Shown here in pieces: positions 8,738-53,757 of a DNA stretch of 64,000 nt. The stretch comes from Plesiomonas shigelloides (lineage in GTDB: Bacteria; Pseudomonadota; Gammaproteobacteria; Enterobacterales; CAMTGL01). The stretch covers positions 1,488,001-1,552,000 of the forward strand of contig NZ_LT575468.1 in NCBI RefSeq assembly GCF_900087055.1, in the 5' to 3' direction. The notes beneath the pieces were generated by a model. The model ran no database searches. It saw nothing but the letters and a program-made list of their open reading frames with translations, and had not been told where the DNA came from. Within the stretch, counting starts at the first letter, position 1. Each line of letters opens with the position of its first letter. Both the position numbers and the translations under genes were made by a program.

Positions 8738-10447
8738 TCAGAATGAGGTACGTTTATACTGACGGTAAACCGCTTGCCAGAAGTTTTGCTCGATGTTTTG
8801 CTCCAGCGCCTCGTCAGAGGTTTGTACGGCAACACCTTCGAACTGCGCGGTCTTCGCCACTTGCAGCGCGATGTACTTGCTGACGCGTTGGATCTCAGAC
8901 AGACATGGCAGCAGAGAACCTTCACCTTGGCTGGCCAGTGGCGAGCAGTCAGCCAATGCACGGCTTGCTGTCATCAGCATGGCATCAGTCACGCGACGCG
9001 CGCCAGAAGCCAAGACACCCAAACCGATACCAGGGAAGATATAGGAGTTGTTGCACTGGGCAATCGGGTAAGTTTCACCGTTGTGCAGGACTGGGGCAAA
9101 TGGGCTACCACTGGCAACCAGCGCGGCACCATCGGTCCAACGGATCACATCTTCAGGACGCGCTTCCACGCGTGATGTTGGGTTTGACAGCGGCATCACG
9201 ATTGGACGCGGGCAGTGCGCGTGCATCTCACGGATGATCTCTTCGGTAAACAGACCCGGCTGGCCAGATACCCCGATCAGGATGGTTGGCTTGCCGTTAC
9301 GCACAACGTCCATCAAGGAGATCATGTCAGAAGACAGATCCCAGTTTTGCAGTTTGTCATGCTTTTGTACCAGCTTGCTTTGGAAATCCAGCAGGTTTGG
9401 CATCTGATCCGTCAGCAGACCAAAACGATCAACCATGAACACCTGTGCACGGGCTTCTTCATCACTCAGACCTTCCGCTTTCATCTGGGCAACGATTTGC
9501 TCAGCAATACCGCAACCGGCAGAGCCTGCGCCCAAGAAGGCAACGCGTTGATCACGCAGCTGGCTACCGGCAGCGCGGCTGGCGGCAATCAGGCAGCCCA
9601 ATGTGACCGCGGCAGTACCTTGGATATCATCGTTAAAGCAGCACAGCTCATCGCGATAGCGGTTCAGCAGTGGCATGGCGTTTTTCTGCGCGAAGTCTTC
9701 GAACTGCAGCAGGACGTTTGGCCAGCGGCGCTTCACGGCTTGGATGAATTCGTCTACAAACGCATCGTACTCTTCACCGGTGATGCGCGGGTGACGCCAG
9801 CCCATGTACATTGGGTCGTTCAAACGCTGTGGGTTATTGGTACCTACATCCAGCACGACTGGCAGGGTGTACGCTGGGCTGATGCCACCACAAGAGGTGT
9901 ACAGAGACAGCTTACCGATTGGGATCCCCATACCACCGATACCTTGGTCACCGAGGCCCAAAATACGCTCACCGTCTGTCACCACGATCACTTTTACGTT
10001 TTGCTTGGTGGCGTTTTGCAGCATGTCATCAATACGATCGCGGTTCGGGTAGGAGATGAACAGACCACGGTTACGGCGATAGATATTAGAGAATTGCTCA
10101 CACGCCTGACCTACAGTCGGGGTGTAGATAACCGGCATCATCTCTTCGAGGTGATCATTGACCAGACGGTAGAACAGGGTTTCGTTGGTGTCCTGAATAT
10201 TACGCAGGAAGATGTGGCGGTTGATGTCGCTATGGAAACTGGTGAATTGTTCGTAGGCGCGATTGGCTTGTTCTTCGATCGTTTCGATAGCTTCCGGCAG
10301 CAAACCTTCCAAGTTGAAAAACTGACGCTCATCTTCCGTGAAAGCGCTGCCCTTGTTGAGCAGAGGCGTTTCCAACAGTGCTGGACCGGCATAAGGGATG
10401 TACAAAGGACGCTTGCTGTCCTGATTGATTTCAGTAGTCATATTCAT
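8738..10447 (-). CDS. maeA: NAD-dependent malic enzyme (malate dehydrogenase, decarboxylating)
   Basis: MaeA (SfcA) converts malate to pyruvate and CO2 with NAD. The 569-residue protein covers the whole family: the substrate tyrosine in VIYTPTVG, the [19 protein letters not shown] segment, the metal site [10 protein letters not shown] and [11 protein letters not shown], and the dinucleotide loop [14 protein letters not shown]. The C-terminus with FPGIGLG is intact. It starts at 10447 (Met-Asn-Met); the second Met at 10441 is an alternative. It is a single-gene unit with its own terminator. In this window it lies between sanA and the curli genes. Confidence 0.97.
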
Positions 10448-10752
10448 TGTGTGTTTGTAGGAAAGGCACCGCCGATCCTAGGGCGATGTAACAGAAAGTA
10501 AATTGCCGAAGACCATAAATGTGCGGACGCGCAAGTTATTGGTTTCAGCAACTGACCGATTGAGACTGAATACGCTGAAAATTGCCGATAAATCATATAA
10601 ATAATGTGAGCCGATTCAGGATTATGACCGGCTCACTGTGACCCCGATTCAAAATTATACGTAACCAACTAACAACCCATGCATAACCAATACATAGCTA
10701 CTACTTAACTATGATGTATTGTATCAAGGTCAATCGTAAGCCGATTTTTGGC
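10448..10752. promoter_or_regulatory. maeA upstream region with inverted and direct repeats
   Basis: This gene-free stretch holds the maeA promoter and the end of the curli unit. GTGAGCCG (10606-10613) is perfectly inverted as CGGCTCAC (10629-10636). Partly overlapping it, a direct repeat of the form CCGATTCARRATTAT occurs at 10611-10625 and 10644-10658. No T-run follows, so a protein-binding site or a weak hairpin are both possible. Confidence 0.4.
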
Positions 10753-11094
10753 TTAATGTTGCTTACTAGCCGTGTCTGGGATCTGTGTTTGTGCCTCGGA
10801 AAGTAGAGTATCGCCCTGATAAAGCTTAACCGAGATATGTACCTTATCTTGTGGTGAAAGGGTAAAGCGCAGGGTGGATAGCGCCTGATCTTGTCCGGCG
10901 GTTAATGTTACGTCCTGCTGCTGCGTGGTTCTGCTGGTGCCCGATGGGCCGGTTTTGTTGACGCTCACACTGTAGCTGCATTCACAGGTTTGTGCGCTGC
11001 GTGCGTGGGTAACGATATCTGTCGTTTGGTCGTGCTGCTGGCGGGTAAACCAGATTTGACTTTGCACGGCGCCAGCGAGTAATAAGGCAAGCAT
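10753..11094 (-). CDS. csgC: Curli assembly chaperone CsgC-like
   Basis: A 113-residue protein last in the curli gene series. E. coli CsgC (110 residues) is a periplasmic immunoglobulin-fold protein that stops curlin from aggregating before export. Shared traits are the hydrophobic leader, SQI-F just after it, a CxC pair (here TCEC; the E. coli protein has the equivalent pair), and the SPQDKVHISV strand near the end. Overall similarity is low, so the call rests on those marks plus position after csgB-csgA. GGGAGA lies five bases before the start. Confidence 0.78.
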   Translation of the reverse strand: MLALLLAGAVQSQIWFTRQQHDQTTDIVTHARSAQTCECSYSVSVNKTGPSGTSRTTQQQDVTLTAGQDQALSTLRFTLSPQDKVHISVKLYQGDTLLSEAQTQIPDTASKQH

Positions 11095-11276
11095 AGGATC
11101 TCCCTGTCATCAATGTGATGTGGTGGAAAAGATGCGATGGAAAAGGTGAAAAATCAGTGCCTAGGGTTTTCAGTGAGCATGAGTTAGCGGCCATCAGCTC
11201 TCTACGTTATTGGATAAAAGATAGGTCAAAAATTCGCAGGTTGCTCACAGCGGCGGTTATCCCCATCTGAAAACAA

Positions 11277-11301
11277 CAAAACGGAGCAGGGCCCCGTTTT
11301 G
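11277..11301 (-). terminator. Hairpin after csgA
   Basis: CAAAACGG (11277-11284) pairs with CCGTTTTG (11294-11301), with a GC-rich loop; TTG-TTTTC follows on the reverse strand. It sits between csgA and csgC and may reduce csgC expression rather than stop it fully. Confidence 0.6.
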
Positions 11302-11348
11302 TTCGTATCTCACTGAGCGGCGATTACTCGCAGCAGAGTCAGCGTGTA

Positions 11349-12275
11349 TCAGTTTTGGTTTACGGTCGCAGAGTTGTGACCACCATACTGAGTGACACTG
11401 GCCAAGTCGTTGTAAGCGCTCTGAGTCACGGTTACGTCGTTGTGATGACCGTTTTGGTAAGTATCAGACTCGTTCCATGCACCAGATTGTTTGATGTCGG
11501 CATCGTTGCGGCGACCAATTTGATCGACATCGATATCGTTATGAGCACCACTTTGTCTTACTTTGGCATCGTTGCCGTTACCGGTTTGGGCAACATCGAT
11601 ATCGTTATGCACGCCACGTTGTTTCACGTCGGCATCGTTGAGATGGCCTTTTTGCACCACATCAACATCGTTTTTCCAGCCACGTTGTGAAACGTCAGCA
11701 AAGTTGCCATTGCCAGATTGTTTAACGGTGGTGTCGTTGTAACGGCCACGTTGATTCACATCAGCTTCGTTGCCATTGCCGTTTTGTTTGACGTAAACGT
11801 CATTCAGGAAACCGCGCTGTTTAACATCGGCATCGTTTTTACGACCAGATTGTTTGACGTCGATTTCATTGAATTTACCGCTTTGAGCAACGGTAGCGTC
11901 ATTTTTACGGCCACGTTGATCGATATCAGTATTATTTTTGTAGCCGCTTTGGTCTACTTGAGCATCGTTACGTTTGCCACGTTGCTCGATATTGATATCG
12001 TTTTTGGTACCGGTTTGATCGGTGGTGGCGGAGTTAAAAGAGCCACTTTGATAAATCACGGTATCACTTTTTGATGCCCCAATTTGAGTTGAGGTTGAGC
12101 TGTTTTTGGTTCCTTTTTGGGTTACATCAATCAGTACGCTGTTTGAACTGCTTTGCAGAGCATCAGCACTGTTACCATTACCGGTTTGGTAAATGGTGGT
12201 GGTTTGGTTGGCGGCGTTAACAGATACGGCACCGATAATAGCGGCAGTGATGATAGACAGATTCAACATTTTCAT
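11349..12275 (-). CDS. csgA: Major curlin CsgA with about 25 eleven-residue strand repeats
   Basis: The secreted amyloid subunit of curli fibres. A signal peptide (cleavage near VNA-ANQ, residues 21-22) is followed almost wholly by 11-residue units of the form xQ-G--N---V. I count about 25 units, the last 20 in nearly perfect register. E. coli CsgA has five repeats (ten strands) in 151 residues; this one has 308 residues, so a stack of about twelve coils is expected. Unlike E. coli, most units carry the sequence (K/R/H)ND-DV, giving many aspartates and basic residues along one face. The 33-base periodicity is also visible in the DNA. It lies downstream of csgB with a 48-base gap. Confidence 0.93.
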   Translation of the reverse strand: MKMLNLSIITAAIIGAVSVNAANQTTTIYQTGNGNSADALQSSSNSVLIDVTQKGTKNSSTSTQIGASKSDTVIYQSGSFNSATTDQTGTKNDINIEQRGKRNDAQVDQSGYKNNTDIDQRGRKNDATVAQSGKFNEIDVKQSGRKNDADVKQRGFLNDVYVKQNGNGNEADVNQRGRYNDTTVKQSGNGNFADVSQRGWKNDVDVVQKGHLNDADVKQRGVHNDIDVAQTGNGNDAKVRQSGAHNDIDVDQIGRRNDADIKQSGAWNESDTYQNGHHNDVTVTQSAYNDLASVTQYGGHNSATVNQN

Positions 12276-12323
12276 GGGATATATCCTCAGTGTTGCTTTG
12301 CCTGATTAATTTAATCGAGTAAC

Positions 12324-12815
12324 TCAATTACTTTGATTGACTGTAATTGGTAACCCTACACCGTGTTGCACGACTGCAGCGCTAAGGCCCGTGCCATATT
12401 GATTGATATTGGCTTGATTACCCGAACCATATTGAGTAATCGATGCGTAATTGTTATATCCGTATTGGTTAATGGCTGCATCGTTAGATGAACCATATTG
12501 GCTAACGTATGCTTCGTTACCTGAACCATACTGCGCAACAGAAGCCGAATTATTATTTCCGATTTGTTCAGCAAAGGCGGTATTGTTGGTGCCATGCTGA
12601 GTCAGATAATAATCGTTAACATTGCCGCGTTGTTTTACAGTGGCTTTGTTAAATGCACCGTCCTGTGCTATTTCGGTATTATTCCAGTTACCAATTTGTT
12701 TTACATGTGCTTGGTTTAACGTTATTTCATCTGGAGCCATATCTTCTGCTGCATAAGCTTGAGAACTTAATGCCAGCAAAATAGATATAGCCAGATAACC
12801 GGTTTTTCGCTGCAT
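12324..12815 (-). CDS. csgB: Curlin nucleator CsgB
   Basis: The minor curlin that is held at the cell surface and starts polymerisation of CsgA. The 163-residue protein has a signal peptide (AQAYAAED near residue 22) and about eleven units of the type QYGSGN-A-V/I, e.g. AQYGSGNEAYVSQYGSSND. Its glycine/tyrosine/asparagine-rich units differ from those of the neighbouring csgA product, whose units are charged. Length is close to E. coli CsgB (151). It is the first gene after the csgG terminator, so csgB-csgA-csgC probably has its own promoter in the AT-rich 12816-13010 interval. Confidence 0.9.
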   Translation of the reverse strand: MQRKTGYLAISILLALSSQAYAAEDMAPDEITLNQAHVKQIGNWNNTEIAQDGAFNKATVKQRGNVNDYYLTQHGTNNTAFAEQIGNNNSASVAQYGSGNEAYVSQYGSSNDAAINQYGYNNYASITQYGSGNQANINQYGTGLSAAVVQHGVGLPITVNQSN

Positions 12816-13010
12816 TATATTTACTCATGTCGTTGGTAATGTCCTCAAGACAGGAGTAAGTATTGGTTTGATATTTGATTACCAAAATAAAACTAATTTC
12901 TTATTTTTTCTGAGTGTGATGGATGAAAGTATTAATTCTTTTGATGGGGTGTTGGCTAACTTATTGTGGTGTATGATGATTTTTGAATGGATTTTAATGG
13001 TGTGATAAGT
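12816..13010 (-). promoter_or_regulatory. Probable csgBAC promoter region
   Basis: AT-rich DNA upstream of csgB and downstream of the csgG terminator. By analogy with enteric curli loci it should hold the CsgD-dependent csgB promoter, but I cannot point to a specific CsgD site. Confidence 0.45.
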
Positions 13011-13016
13011 GAAAAA

Positions 13017-13054
13017 TTAAAAAAAAAGAGAGCAATACTGCTCTCTTTTTTATT
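13017..13054 (-). terminator. Intrinsic terminator after csgG
   Basis: GAGAGCA (13028-13034) and TGCTCTC (13039-13045) form a stem with loop ATAC, flanked by long A and T runs on both sides. It ends the csgDEFG transcript before csgB. Confidence 0.88.
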
Positions 13055-13081
13055 GATAAGGGTTTAATACCCCGGCAAGAG

Positions 13082-13915
13082 TTAAATAGCCAGAGGTACA
13101 TCCTCTTTCATATAACGTTGAATTATAGCGTTATTTATGTCAGACGGATTTTGTAAAGACCACAGATTTTGCCTAATACCTTCCACAATCAGATGGGCAA
13201 CACCGGCTTCAAGCGCCGACATCATACACATCATGACAGGCTCGTTTGTGGTAAAGCCGGCCTCCAGCTCCAGTAGGCGCTGGTATTCGATAAATCGAAA
13301 TACGCCTGCGGAGAACTCGCTAGAGAGGATAGTCTTGCTGGTATTGACGGACAGCAAGACTTCCCCAGTTCGGACGTCAACGGCGCGTAAGTTGACGGCG
13401 ACCTGATCGACCCGATACTTGCCGTCAGCACCGATCCCGAAGTAACGGGCACCGGCACCCCCGGTTTTGATATCTGAGTCGTAACCGATAATGGCTCCTT
13501 CAATCAGCACATTGGCTGAGAGTAACGAAGGTAGCGGGTTTTGGTTATTGGCTGCCACAGTACCGTTTTCCTGGGCGGCACGGATAATTTTTCGCTCGTT
13601 CAGCAGGTTCTGTAAACCTTCCCGCTCCAGTGGCACGAACCAGCCGGAGTCTTTTAACGCCGATGTCAGCATAGCGTTGCCGCTTTGCGGTACAGCGGTT
13701 GAGAAGTTACTGGCCGGCAGAGGTTTAAACTGACCGGTTTCATCCTGTACGCTATAAACTGAAACGATAATTTTTCCGTTCGGTTTGGGTAGTGCCACCA
13801 AGTCTTTGTAGGTGCTGGCACGTGGCAGTAATGTCGGTTTGGCCGCTTCCTTAGGTACTTCTGTAATTGAACAACCCCCAAGTAAAACGGCAATGATCAG
13901 AATCATTGCTCGCAT
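13082..13915 (-). CDS. csgG: Curli secretion channel lipoprotein CsgG
   Basis: CsgG forms the nonameric outer-membrane pore through which curlins leave the cell. The 277-residue protein has a lipobox (LLGGC, Cys15), the TYKDLVALPKP segment after it, the FKPLPASNFSTAVPQS constriction-loop region and the GADGKYRVDQVAVNLR strand region. Length equals E. coli CsgG (277). It is the last gene of the csgDEFG set and is followed by a terminator. Confidence 0.97.
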   Translation of the reverse strand: MRAMILIIAVLLGGCSITEVPKEAAKPTLLPRASTYKDLVALPKPNGKIIVSVYSVQDETGQFKPLPASNFSTAVPQSGNAMLTSALKDSGWFVPLEREGLQNLLNERKIIRAAQENGTVAANNQNPLPSLLSANVLIEGAIIGYDSDIKTGGAGARYFGIGADGKYRVDQVAVNLRAVDVRTGEVLLSVNTSKTILSSEFSAGVFRFIEYQRLLELEAGFTTNEPVMMCMMSALEAGVAHLIVEGIRQNLWSLQNPSDINNAIIQRYMKEDVPLAI

Positions 13916-13932
13916 AGTGCTTACCTTTCTTA

Positions 13933-14334
13933 TCAGTTAGAGAGCCGTCCATTGACTTCAATGGTGGATGTTTGCCCGGTTTTCTTATCCGTGATCACCA
14001 CAAAGAGTTGGCCTGAACTAGCGCCGCCTTGCACTTTGACGGAATAATCATTGGTGGAAATAGATTGTCCGGGCGTAGGGTTGCTGAGCAAATCACTGAT
14101 CAGGTTGGATTGCAGCAATTCAGTCAGGTTATCTAATGGTGATGTACCGGCAAGAGCATCATCGAGTGCCGGGTCTTTATAGCTGTTTTGCGCTTGTGCG
14201 TTCGACATCAGATATGAGCCGTTAAGCGGGTTGCCGCCGAAGTTCGGATTGACCGGCTGGTAGATTAGCGGGCTGCTGTGTGCAAGAGCACTGAACAGTA
14301 GCACCGGGGCAGCAAGGAGGGCTTTGTGTTTCAT
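13933..14334 (-). CDS. csgF: Curli assembly factor CsgF
   Basis: CsgF plugs the CsgG pore and places the nucleator CsgB at the surface. I start at 14334 (MKHKALL), giving 133 residues. The upstream GGAGA is well spaced there, and the signal peptide then begins normally; a longer frame from 14364 would overlap csgE by 20 bases. The N-terminal NPNFGGNPLNGSYL and AQAQNSYKDP segments, which in E. coli CsgF enter the CsgG channel, are conserved, as is KKTGQTSTIEV at the end. Confidence 0.95.
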   Translation of the reverse strand: MKHKALLAAPVLLFSALAHSSPLIYQPVNPNFGGNPLNGSYLMSNAQAQNSYKDPALDDALAGTSPLDNLTELLQSNLISDLLSNPTPGQSISTNDYSVKVQGGASSGQLFVVITDKKTGQTSTIEVNGRLSN

Positions 14335-14344
14335 ACTGTCTCCA

Positions 14345-14758
14345 TTAAAACTCATCAGCGGCAAGTTCGCTGGTTTTGAGAAGTGCCTTATCGATCAATA
14401 TCTTGGCCATATTGTCTGAGGTGACAGTAATCGCCTGATCGACAACCTGTTCCAGATTTCTCCGGCTTGGAAATAACACAGTCCTGAATAAAATATTTTG
14501 CTCATTCTTTATGGTAATTATACTTCCCCAACGAGCACTCGGTTTTTCTTGAATGGATAAGTTGATCTTTTGGCTGGCTTGCCATTTGTCACTGAATAGA
14601 CGATAAAAATCGTGACCGATAGGGGTAATGGTTCGGTTGGTTATAAGGCCAGGAATTTCAACTTCAACGGCAGAGGCCTGCGGGGCAGGAAATGCAGACA
14701 GCAGGAACAACAGTCCTGCCGTAGCGAGAGTTTTTCCGTAAATAAAATTCATCGTCAT
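14345..14758 (-). CDS. csgE: Curli secretion adaptor CsgE
   Basis: CsgE is the periplasmic cap of the CsgG channel and selects curlins for export. The 137-residue protein has a signal peptide (PQASA-VEV), then VEVEIPGLITNRT, IGHDFYRLFSDKW and KPSARWGS as in the E. coli protein, and ends with the shared sequence LAADEF. Start is 14758 (Met-Thr-Met) or 14752. It lies directly before csgF and is separated by only 10 bases from the start chosen there. Confidence 0.95.
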   Translation of the reverse strand: MTMNFIYGKTLATAGLLFLLSAFPAPQASAVEVEIPGLITNRTITPIGHDFYRLFSDKWQASQKINLSIQEKPSARWGSIITIKNEQNILFRTVLFPSRRNLEQVVDQAITVTSDNMAKILIDKALLKTSELAADEF

Positions 14759-14824
14759 GGCTCTGCATGTTATTTATTATTGTCCGCCAGATTCATTCCG
14801 GCAGGGTCTTATCGCTAAACTTTA

Positions 14825-15472
14825 TTACTGCTTAAGATTCTCTTCAGCCCAGTAAATGGCTTGTGTCCGATTACGTACGTTGATTTTTCTGAATAAATTA
14901 TAAAGATGTGACTTTATGGTATGTTCGCTAACAAACAGCATGCTGGCGATTTCCATGTTCGACGCGCCAGAGCGTAATTGTTCTAAGATCTCTTTTTCCC
15001 GTAACGTAAGTTGTGGGTAATTGGCGCTGTTGCGCTGGTGAACGCGTAAATGTTCAATCAATAAACTGGTTAGGCTACGGGGCAGCCAAAACTCACCGTT
15101 GAGCACCGATTTAATCCCTTTAACCAGCGTGTCTTCGTTATCTTCGGTGCGAAAAATGCCGCTGATCGCCGGCCAAGACAGAATATCTTCTTGTGTCACA
15201 TCATCTGGCATATTGAACAACAACGTCTTAATGCTGTTACGATGCTGGAACAGCTTGTATTGCCACAGTTTTATTTCTTTATTATCCATTTCGGATAAAT
15301 CAAACAGCATCAGAGTCAATTCCGCCGGCATACTGTCCAGTGGATTGGCCAGATTATGAATGCTGACCGGCAGAGAGGTTTTCTCGCGCAATGTTCTGCT
15401 GAGTGCGCTGACCTGCAGGGAAGGCTTGGTAATGAGCAGCAAATGTGCATGCTTTTCCATCGTGAACCCCAT
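14825..15472 (-). CDS. csgD: Curli / biofilm master regulator CsgD
   Basis: A LuxR/FixJ-type regulator of 215 residues. The N-terminal pseudo-receiver region (LLLITKPSLQVSAL) is followed by a GerE-type helix-turn-helix: LTLREKEILEQLRSGASNMEIASMLFVSEHTIKSHLYNLFRKI, given here as positions 155-197, with the conserved EKEIL and HTIKSHLYNL parts. E. coli CsgD activates csgBAC and genes for cellulose synthesis. The gene heads a csgDEFG set and lies on the same strand as csgBAC, unlike the divergent enteric arrangement. A second in-frame Met at 15460 is a possible start. Confidence 0.95.
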   Translation of the reverse strand: MGFTMEKHAHLLLITKPSLQVSALSRTLREKTSLPVSIHNLANPLDSMPAELTLMLFDLSEMDNKEIKLWQYKLFQHRNSIKTLLFNMPDDVTQEDILSWPAISGIFRTEDNEDTLVKGIKSVLNGEFWLPRSLTSLLIEHLRVHQRNSANYPQLTLREKEILEQLRSGASNMEIASMLFVSEHTIKSHLYNLFRKINVRNRTQAIYWAEENLKQ

Positions 15473-42281: not shown

Positions 42282-42719
42282 GTTTCAAGGTTATCTCACT
42301 ACTGGCGGCGTGCTTTTGGGGTTGCCGGTGGTGAGTGCTCAGCTGTATTAGCTCAATCTTTGTGCGTGAGCCGCCCGCTTATCTTTTTCGTTTTTTCCTT
42401 CTTCCTCGTTCCTTCTCTTGCTTTCTTCCTCGCTGCATTTCGAAATGGCCTGACAGTAGTGCTTCTTTCCATATCGATTGCGCGTAATTTCTACTCAATC
42501 ACACGCCAGCAATCTGCGCGACAAAACCGCTCAACAAAACAGGTCGACAAAACAGGTCGACAAAATAGAAAGTGCTCTTTTTTTATAGTGAAAAATTTTA
42601 TAATTAAAACTGCAGCCAGTATCGAAGTAATAATGGCATTTTTTCTATATGCTGCTCGGTTCAAAAGCATTTTTACAGACCAGTGTCAGGCGCACGGGTG
42701 ATTCACGGGGTACATTTTC
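42282..42719. other. Gene-poor interval before ccmA
   Basis: I see no gene here that I can support; a forward frame at 42360-42701 is made of low-complexity codons without a ribosome site. A short tandem repeat lies at 42518-42569. The ccm promoter should be in the last 150 bases. Confidence 0.4.
42518..42569. repeat. Four tandem 13-bp units upstream of ccmA
   Basis: Units GCGACAAAACCGC, TCAACAAAACAGG, TCGACAAAACAGG and TCGACAAAATAGA follow one another without gaps. Confidence 0.65.
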
Positions 42720-51107: not shown

Positions 51108-51177
51108 GACTAACTTGCTCGCAGGCTAATCAGTTCTCGGGCTCATTAGCTCGCTGACTAATGAGTTCGCAGACTAA
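51108..51177. repeat. Degenerate tandem repeat of about 16 bp between torA and torD
   Basis: Units GACTAACTTGCTCGCAG, GCTAATCAGTTCTCGG, GCTCATTAGCTCGCT, GACTAATGAGTTCGCA and the start of a fifth lie head to tail directly after the torA stop. Confidence 0.55.
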
Positions 51178-53757
51178 TTAGTTAGCTGGTTTAGGCACAT
51201 AGCTGCACTCAGCAACCATCTCGATTGGGCCGTTGAATGCCGTGACGGGCTCAACGTGGCCGGTGTATTTCTCCATCTCGACAATAGCGGTATGCGCACT
51301 GGTGGCTTGCGCCAGCTGTGAGGTACCGATATCGATGGTCAACACGTTCGGGTTGCCGTACTTACACATTGCGCCAATCACGCCGCCTTTATCCGGATCG
51401 TACCACGCACCTTCCTGAATACGGATAGTGCCCGGCACATACAGATCGGAAACTACCGCGCCAGCCAACACCTGACCGCGATCGTTAAAGACACGCACGA
51501 TATCGCCATCTTTAATGCCACGCGCTTTCGCATCTTGCGGGCTCATATACACCGGCTCTTTACCGCCGACGGTATATTTGGCGCGCAGGGTTGGTGACTC
51601 ACACAGCTGCGAGTGCAGACGTGCATCAGGGTGAACCGATTGGAGGTGCAGTGGGAAGCGATTAGAGCCAGGGCCGCCGTGAGAGCGCTCCTCTTTTTCA
51701 AACCACATTGGGTAACCACGGCAATCGTCGTAGTTCATGTCGGCAATGGTCTGCGAGAAGATCTCAATCAGGCCACTAGGGGTGCCGAGTGGGTTCAAAT
51801 CAGGATCGTCGCGGAACTCTTGGTGGCGCACAAACAGTTGCGGATCGCTAAATTCGATATAGCCAGAGCCGTTCCAGAACGCTTCGAAGTCAGGCATATG
51901 GATGCCGCGGCCCTTGCCTTGTTGTTGACCGGCCTTATAGATGTGCTTAAGCCAGCCCATCTCATCCATCCCTTCAGTAAAGGCTTGTTCGCGGTTAAAG
52001 CGGCGGCACAGATCGCGGAAAATCTCGAAATCACTGCGCGCTTCAAATTGCGGCTCCACCACTTTGTGCATGGCAATCAGGCCACGGTTAGAGTGGTTAC
52101 CGTATTGGTCGATATCATTACGCTCGAACTGTGTGGTGGCTGGCAGCACGATATCGGCAAAGCGACAAGTTGAGGTCCACTGGTTATCAATGGCGACTAC
52201 GGTTTCCAGTTTCTGCCAACCAGCAATCATGCGGTTGTATTGCTGATGGCGGTGGAACGGGTTAGTACCGCTGAACACGCACATTTTAATCGCCGGCAGG
52301 GTGACTTGCTTGCCGTTCCAGTTGATTACTTTGCCCGGCTCTAACATGGCATCGACAAAGCGCGCGATAGGGATAGTACTGCTATAGCCTTTGTAATCGG
52401 TGCTGGTGTGTACTGGCGGCACGGAAGTCGAGCCAGAGAAACCGCTTAAGATCACTCCTTTGCGGGTTGGCGTCCCGGCGCCGTTATAGTGCCAACCAAA
52501 ACCAAAACCGCCACCCGGCAAGCCAATTTGACCGAGCATGGCCGCTAGCACCACTACCATCCACGCCCACTGTTCGCCGTGCTGCATACGCTGCACACAC
52601 CAGCCGGCCACAATTTGAGTGCGGCCTGCGGCCATTTCGCGTGCCAGCGTACGGATGGTGTCAGCATCAATGCCGGTCAGTTTCGCTGCCCATTCTGGGG
52701 TTTTCGGCTGGTTATCAGTTTTACCCAGCAGATACGGCAGGAATTGCGCGAAACCGACGGTGTAGGTATCGAGGAAGTGCTGATCGTAGAGCTTTTCGGT
52801 GTACAGCACATAGGCCAGCGCCAACTGCAACGGCACATCCGTTTGTGGGTTGATGGCCACATGCTGCACTTTATCGCGACCAAGGAAATCATGGGTGGAG
52901 GAGACCACGGTGTCGATACTGATCACCTTGATGTCGCCCTTGGCCACTTTGTCTTTCAGCTGATGGTAATACTCATACACATCGTGATCTGGGCACCACC
53001 AGTTGACCTGCTGGTTTTTCAGCATGTCAGAGCCCCACAGCACGATGGTTTTGCTGTTTTGCAGCACCAACGGCCATGAAGTTTGCTGTTCGTACACTTC
53101 CATCGAGCCTACCACACGCGGCAGGATCACTTGCGCTGCACCGGTGGAATAGTCGCCGCCGGTGCCTACACGGTTGCCGTGCAGTGCCAAGGCGCGACCC
53201 ATGATGCCGCCAGCGTTATGCAGCATACCGGTAGACTGCCAGCCCGAGCCGGTCAGCAGGGCGCTCGGGCCGTAGGTGGTCTGTACGCGCTCCAGCTCTT
53301 GGTAGAACAGATCCAGCGCCTCATCCCAGCTCACGCGCACAAAGCGGTTATCGCCGCGCTGCGTGGTGTCACTCTTGTGCTTGTTGCGCATCCAGTCAAT
53401 GCGCACCATTGGGTAACGAATGCGAGCGGCATTGTGCACATGATCAGGCAGGCCGTTGATCATATCCGTAGGATACTGGTCTTTTTCAAACGGCTTGGCG
53501 GCGACAAAAATGCCATTTTCCACGGTAGCGCGAATTGCGCCCCAGTGAGAACCTGTCAGAATGCCTTGCTGAGAGTTGGCCGCGCCGCTTGCATCCGCGG
53601 CGAAGGCGTTACGCGGCACCAGCAGCGAAGGGCTCAGCATGCCAAGGGCGGTCAGGCCGCCTAAATGAGCCAGAAAACGGCGACGCGATACGTTAACGCT
53701 GTCCTGAATCAGAGGCGCTGCAGTACGGGTCTCTGGAACACTATTTTGTATTTTCAT
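51178..53757 (-). CDS. torA: Trimethylamine-N-oxide reductase catalytic subunit TorA
   Basis: Periplasmic terminal reductase that converts TMAO to trimethylamine. The 859-residue precursor has a Tat signal (SRRRFLAHLGG, Arg25-27), binds bis-MGD molybdenum cofactor with the serine ligand in GGDYSTGAAQVILPRVVGS, and aligns throughout with E. coli TorA (QQTSWPLVLQNSKTIVLWGS, WTSTCRFADIVLPATTQFER, NPNVLTIDIGTSQLAQATSA). No iron-sulphur cysteine motif is found at the N-terminus, as expected for this subfamily. Electrons come from TorC, encoded 11 bases upstream. Confidence 0.98.
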   Translation of the reverse strand: MKIQNSVPETRTAAPLIQDSVNVSRRRFLAHLGGLTALGMLSPSLLVPRNAFAADASGAANSQQGILTGSHWGAIRATVENGIFVAAKPFEKDQYPTDMINGLPDHVHNAARIRYPMVRIDWMRNKHKSDTTQRGDNRFVRVSWDEALDLFYQELERVQTTYGPSALLTGSGWQSTGMLHNAGGIMGRALALHGNRVGTGGDYSTGAAQVILPRVVGSMEVYEQQTSWPLVLQNSKTIVLWGSDMLKNQQVNWWCPDHDVYEYYHQLKDKVAKGDIKVISIDTVVSSTHDFLGRDKVQHVAINPQTDVPLQLALAYVLYTEKLYDQHFLDTYTVGFAQFLPYLLGKTDNQPKTPEWAAKLTGIDADTIRTLAREMAAGRTQIVAGWCVQRMQHGEQWAWMVVVLAAMLGQIGLPGGGFGFGWHYNGAGTPTRKGVILSGFSGSTSVPPVHTSTDYKGYSSTIPIARFVDAMLEPGKVINWNGKQVTLPAIKMCVFSGTNPFHRHQQYNRMIAGWQKLETVVAIDNQWTSTCRFADIVLPATTQFERNDIDQYGNHSNRGLIAMHKVVEPQFEARSDFEIFRDLCRRFNREQAFTEGMDEMGWLKHIYKAGQQQGKGRGIHMPDFEAFWNGSGYIEFSDPQLFVRHQEFRDDPDLNPLGTPSGLIEIFSQTIADMNYDDCRGYPMWFEKEERSHGGPGSNRFPLHLQSVHPDARLHSQLCESPTLRAKYTVGGKEPVYMSPQDAKARGIKDGDIVRVFNDRGQVLAGAVVSDLYVPGTIRIQEGAWYDPDKGGVIGAMCKYGNPNVLTIDIGTSQLAQATSAHTAIVEMEKYTGHVEPVTAFNGPIEMVAECSYVPKPAN

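Follow-up and report, generated by a model that had tools for sequence, protein, structure and literature searches.

The csgA gene of Plesiomonas shigelloides, located in a DNA stretch of 64,000 nucleotides (the window), is an ordinary major curlin gene of middling length that encodes a fibre protein of curli, a functional amyloid, and its sole unusual trait is the zoning of charge in its product. Negative charge resides on the strands and positive charge on the turns, a separation much cleaner than that seen in the related proteins compared, about 130-240 in number. We infer, with a probability of about 0.6, that this is an ordinary CsgA in which an exaggerated gatekeeper interior slows nucleation before the protein meets CsgB. 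The open reading frame, already recognized as a curlin from the letters alone, matched the Pfam family Curlin_rpt with an E-value of 2.9e-61 (203.5 bits). It encodes tandem N-x-psi-x-psi-x-Q-x-G repeats, csgB adjoins it, and csgG, csgE and csgF lie in the same csg locus (Table 1). The mature chain has 287 residues. For P. shigelloides the presence of csgE, csgF and csgG has been reported (PMC6309461); a literature search on Plesiomonas CsgA, judged by title and abstract, yielded nothing relevant.

Table 1. Features of the csg locus and of the CsgA chain, with positions in the window
Feature	Positions	Strand	Basis
csgC-like chaperone, 113 aa	10753..11094	-	Pfam PF10610, E=5.9e-19
csgA, major curlin, 308 aa, 26 strand units (13 rungs)	11349..12275	-	ORF; Pfam PF07012; unit table; PDB 8c50 match
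CsgA, charge-poor C-terminal rung 13, residues 290-308	11352..11408	-	charge tables
CsgA, interior with zoned charge (rungs 4-12, residues 92-289): strand faces acidic, arcs basic	11409..12002	-	charge tables
CsgA, charge-poor N-terminal rungs 1-3, residues 24-91	12003..12206	-	per-rung charge table
CsgA, putative signal peptide, residues about 1-22, AxA-like VNA/A	12210..12275	-	inspection by eye (hydrophobic N-terminus ending VNA/A); AlphaFold2 pLDDT <50 for residues 1-21
csgB, minor curlin and presumed nucleator, 163 aa, not highly charged	12324..12815	-	Pfam PF07012, E=3.5e-39
Terminator-like hairpin between csgG and csgB, 13 pairs and T-run	13022..13051	-	pattern scan
csgG, secretion channel	13082..13915	-	Pfam PF03783, E=3e-79
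csgF, true start probably an internal ATG (MKHKALL...)	13933..14364	-	Pfam PF10614, E=1e-24
csgE	14345..14758	-	Pfam PF10627, E=8.5e-30
csgD, LuxR-type regulator with VpsT-like receiver domain	14825..15472	-	Pfam GerE, 2e-19; VpsT-like_REC, 1.6e-14

The chain was divided into strand units according to the published motif N-x-psi-x-psi-x-Q-x-G-x-x (PMC10192328). About 25 units had been proposed by the sequence-only reading, and 26 were counted, with Gln at position 7 in all of them and Asn at position 1 in 22. At the first core position (psi-1), 11 of the 13 even units have Ala, whereas 11 of the 13 odd units have Ile, Val or Thr. Because odd and even units are distinct and spacings of 12 residues are confined to arc 2, the repeat register is secure. 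The protein fits the canonical curlin beta-solenoid motif, its inward-facing positions being taken by Asn/Gln and hydrophobic residues. Structure prediction had been proposed earlier as a check. AlphaFold2 with a first alignment also placed 26 strands, in a poor model (pLDDT 69.5) whose fold matches were meaningless; a second alignment yielded an all-beta repeat model (pLDDT 77, pTM 0.76), for which Foldseek ranked the Pontibacter CsgA 8c50 first at a non-significant E-value of 0.095. As the model thus gives no independent confirmation, the fold assignment rests on the sequence matches to solved curlins, 8c50 with an E-value of 3.5e-41 and E. coli CsgA (8enq) with 2.9e-10. A long, regular solenoid, putatively of the left-handed beta type, is expected, in line with the long and regular fibre coil predicted before. 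In published models, an even strand number leads to the translational stacking known from E. coli and the odd-stranded R15.5 to a screw (PMC10192328); with 26 strands, Plesiomonas CsgA would therefore stack like the E. coli protein.

The protein had also been called giant, a description that did not survive the comparison. Curlins with 4-62 (PMC10192328) or 3-52 repeats (PMC12822426), together 3-62, have been published, the curlin of 8c50 has 15.5, and the CsgA relatives of the same order in the fetched loci have mostly 435-614 aa. Only relative to the Enterobacteriaceae, with 5 repeats almost invariably (PMC12822426), is Plesiomonas CsgA long, and there is nothing new in its length. The loci of the relatives were collected with CsgG as bait; close CsgA relatives were not found in a direct search of the genome contigs with CsgA as query.

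The high charge noticed in the letters alone was confirmed. The mature chain contains 36 Asp/Glu and 31 Lys/Arg, corresponding to a net charge of -5 and a pI of 5.7. Compared with 241 other curlin ORFs of the fetched loci, it had the highest charged fraction (0.245, next 0.213) and the highest basic fraction (0.113, next 0.099) among about 242 curlins, which are mutually related and were partly picked by similarity to the query, and these ranks are descriptive and not probabilities. Its net charge was ordinary in the same set; the long relatives are acidic, with net charges of -25 to -86, whereas Plesiomonas CsgA is near neutral. The pattern (K/R/H)ND-DV, proposed for most units, occurred in its exact form in only 4 of 26, or in 5 if Ile is allowed for Val, and ND is preceded by a basic residue or His nine times. 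The underlying acidic pattern is nevertheless real: of the 26 units, 17 have Asp or Glu at strand position 2, 13 at position 4 and 9 at both. Units 6-24 form the regular array, and their arcs carry 20 Lys/Arg, 5 His and no acidic residue. The zoning goes beyond a shuffle of the outward residues, with an observed statistic of 46 against a mean of -0.7 (sd 7; 0 of 100000 shuffles). Strand positions 2 and 4 are acidic to 67.5%, compared to 23.5% in a pool of 133 curlins, and the arcs are 33% basic and 0% acidic, compared to 4.3% and 17.1% in the pool. In a zoning product score, likewise descriptive, CsgA reached 0.225 and the best rival of the 133 curlins 0.062. With the acidic position filled in at least half of the strands and paired with basic arcs, the zoning presents a natural test case for gatekeepers.

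Nucleation of a Citrobacter CsgA equipped with the gatekeepers of E. coli is slowed by Asp together with Arg/Lys, an effect that salt or low pH abolishes (PMC9900396). This supports the gatekeeper role of Asp and charged residues invoked in the sequence-only reading. Because the gatekeepers act in this way in Citrobacter CsgA, the charged interior of the Plesiomonas protein most likely delays spontaneous nucleation. CsgA would be secreted via CsgG, CsgE and CsgF and then polymerise head-to-tail on CsgB. Its interior would represent an enlarged gatekeeper set: as long as the chain is unfolded, contacts between Asp and Lys/Arg would hold back spontaneous nucleation, and the charge-poor ends would be free to dock on CsgB and on the tip of the growing fibre. 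Once folded, the fibre would present acidic columns flanked by basic columns, near neutral overall. The units of rungs 4-12 have 3.2 charged residues each versus 1.1 at the ends (permutation p=0.0002, for a split chosen post hoc). In E. coli CsgA the gatekeepers are located in repeats 2-4 and none in the end repeats (PMC9900396), so the same plan may be realized here on a longer chain. The C-terminal end was charge-poor in 49 of 51 long curlins; judged from these sequences, this is a general curlin trait. The Pontibacter R15.5 curlin, which contains 20% Asp/Glu, polymerises robustly alone, forming fibres without nucleator over the tested pH range and in EDTA (PMC10192328), and this makes the strict need for a nucleator suggested before doubtful. 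Unlikely, too, is an electrostatic switch, in which the Asp-Lys/Arg contacts of a near-neutral, zoned curlin would block nucleation until salt, acid or CsgB releases it and the charge-poor ends dock.

The charges of CsgA are outward-facing as well as zoned, and they may serve contacts between fibres or between fibre and surface, i.e., bundling and adhesion, with nucleation control as an incidental effect. The acidic strand faces of one fibre would then pair with basic arcs on a second fibre, or with polymers of the host or the matrix. The ordered sheets of R15.5 have been attributed to electrostatic contacts (PMC10192328), but the charge depletion at the ends fits nucleation control better, even though the depletion at the C-terminus is general in curlins, and we consider the contact function rather improbable as the primary role. 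Calcium was a further candidate: the Asp columns might bind Ca2+ as in RTX beta-rolls, and the ion would assemble or stiffen the fibre. GNGND strings in CsgA look like RTX turns, and Ca2+ makes R15.5 fibres aggregate and encrust (PMC10192328). A test for the nonapeptide GGxGxDxux of the RTX beta-roll was negative, however, as the period is 11 and not 9, Asp is found at outward strand positions and not in GGxGxD turns, and the Pfam scan revealed no RTX family. Flanking basic residues would compete and R15.5 assembles in EDTA (PMC10192328), which makes a calcium-dependent fibre hardly credible.

The repeat array is old at the DNA level. The longest exact repeat inside csgA has 17 bp, the best identity between two units is 76%, third codon positions are only about 40% identical between units, and the genome is a single contig of 3.41 Mb. 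An assembly error or a collapsed repeat, which had been raised as a possible flaw, was ruled out on this internal evidence, since units so diverged would not be collapsed by short reads. The divergence likewise ruled out an array of recent slippage, and a change of repeat number by slippage of a 33-bp unit, earlier suggested as a source of variation, is unlikely because none of the units has a near-identical counterpart at the DNA level. A csg match was absent in the sole other genome examined of the same genus and family (75% complete). Similarity at lag 66 is the highest of all lags in the array, and the outward positions vary from curlin to curlin (PMC10192328); both observations would suit a neutral decoration, in which the lineage drifted to Asp and Lys/Arg at tolerant outward positions and spread them via 66-bp duplications. 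Yet the zoning persists in 19 units that are old and diverged, and the CsgB encoded by this genome lacks a comparable charge pattern, with 15% acid and 9% base at its outward positions. Neutral drift thus appears very unlikely as an explanation, and a gatekeeper interior that slows nucleation is the reading we prefer.

The csg locus is a complete csgDEFG-csgBAC set (10753-15472) with both halves in tandem on one strand, and its CsgG is the only one in the genome. The hairpin between csgG and csgB is likely a terminator, implying two tandem transcription units; the number of hairpin sites in the region was not above the shuffled expectation in the pattern scan. Among the fetched loci with both csg halves, those of Enterobacteriaceae, Yersiniaceae and Hafniaceae were all divergent; the tandem order was also present in the loci of one family of the same order (f25) and is known from Aeromonadales (PMC3521004). 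In a CsgG tree, the Plesiomonas protein was sister to the enterobacterial group (support 100/99). Because the early-branching Plesiomonas shares the longer CsgA and the tandem operons with outgroups, these features may be the older state and the five-repeat CsgA with divergent operons of E. coli the derived one, an argument based on one lineage.

Several features were observed elsewhere in the window. An open frame of 428 aa (9215-10501, + strand) is antisense to a malic enzyme gene (8738-10447) and is probably a shadow ORF. An intergenic 13-bp tandem repeat has 3.6 copies (42519-42565). Between 45350 and 59769, cytochrome c maturation genes (ccmF, ccmH-like) adjoin genes for a molybdopterin oxidoreductase and a TorS-type sensor kinase, likely a TMAO respiration cluster. 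Directly 3' of the molybdopterin oxidoreductase gene lies a 16/32-bp tandem repeat (51108-51188) with GACTAATTAGTTCGCA units.

Among the solved curlins, the best sequence match of Plesiomonas CsgA is the CsgA of Pontibacter korlensis (R15.5, PDB 8c50), with which it shares the long regular solenoid, repeats of about 22 residues and outward acidic ladders. R15.5 has an odd strand number and a 2-1 screw, whereas the 13 repeats of Plesiomonas CsgA give an even number; R15.5 is strongly acidic with a pI of 2.98 (PMC10192328), and Plesiomonas CsgA differs in its higher pI and its basic arcs. The long CsgA proteins of the same order (loci L096, L097 and L107, family f25) are likewise encoded in a csgB-csgA pair 3' of csgG on the same strand, and locus L107 also has csgC, as in Plesiomonas. 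They differ in size (524 aa), acidity (net charge of -35 to -40) and their few basic residues. With the CsgA of Enterobacteriaceae, including that of E. coli (PDB 8enq/8enr), the Plesiomonas protein has in common the operon genes, the even strand number, the charge-poor last repeat and, at psi-1, a bulky residue in motif a versus Ala in motif b. It does not belong to their five-repeat type, having 13 repeats instead of 5, Asn instead of Ser at the start of motif a and tandem instead of divergent operons. The enterobacterial proteins have far fewer charges and a Gly-rich N22 segment, the like of which is absent after the putative signal peptide of Plesiomonas CsgA.
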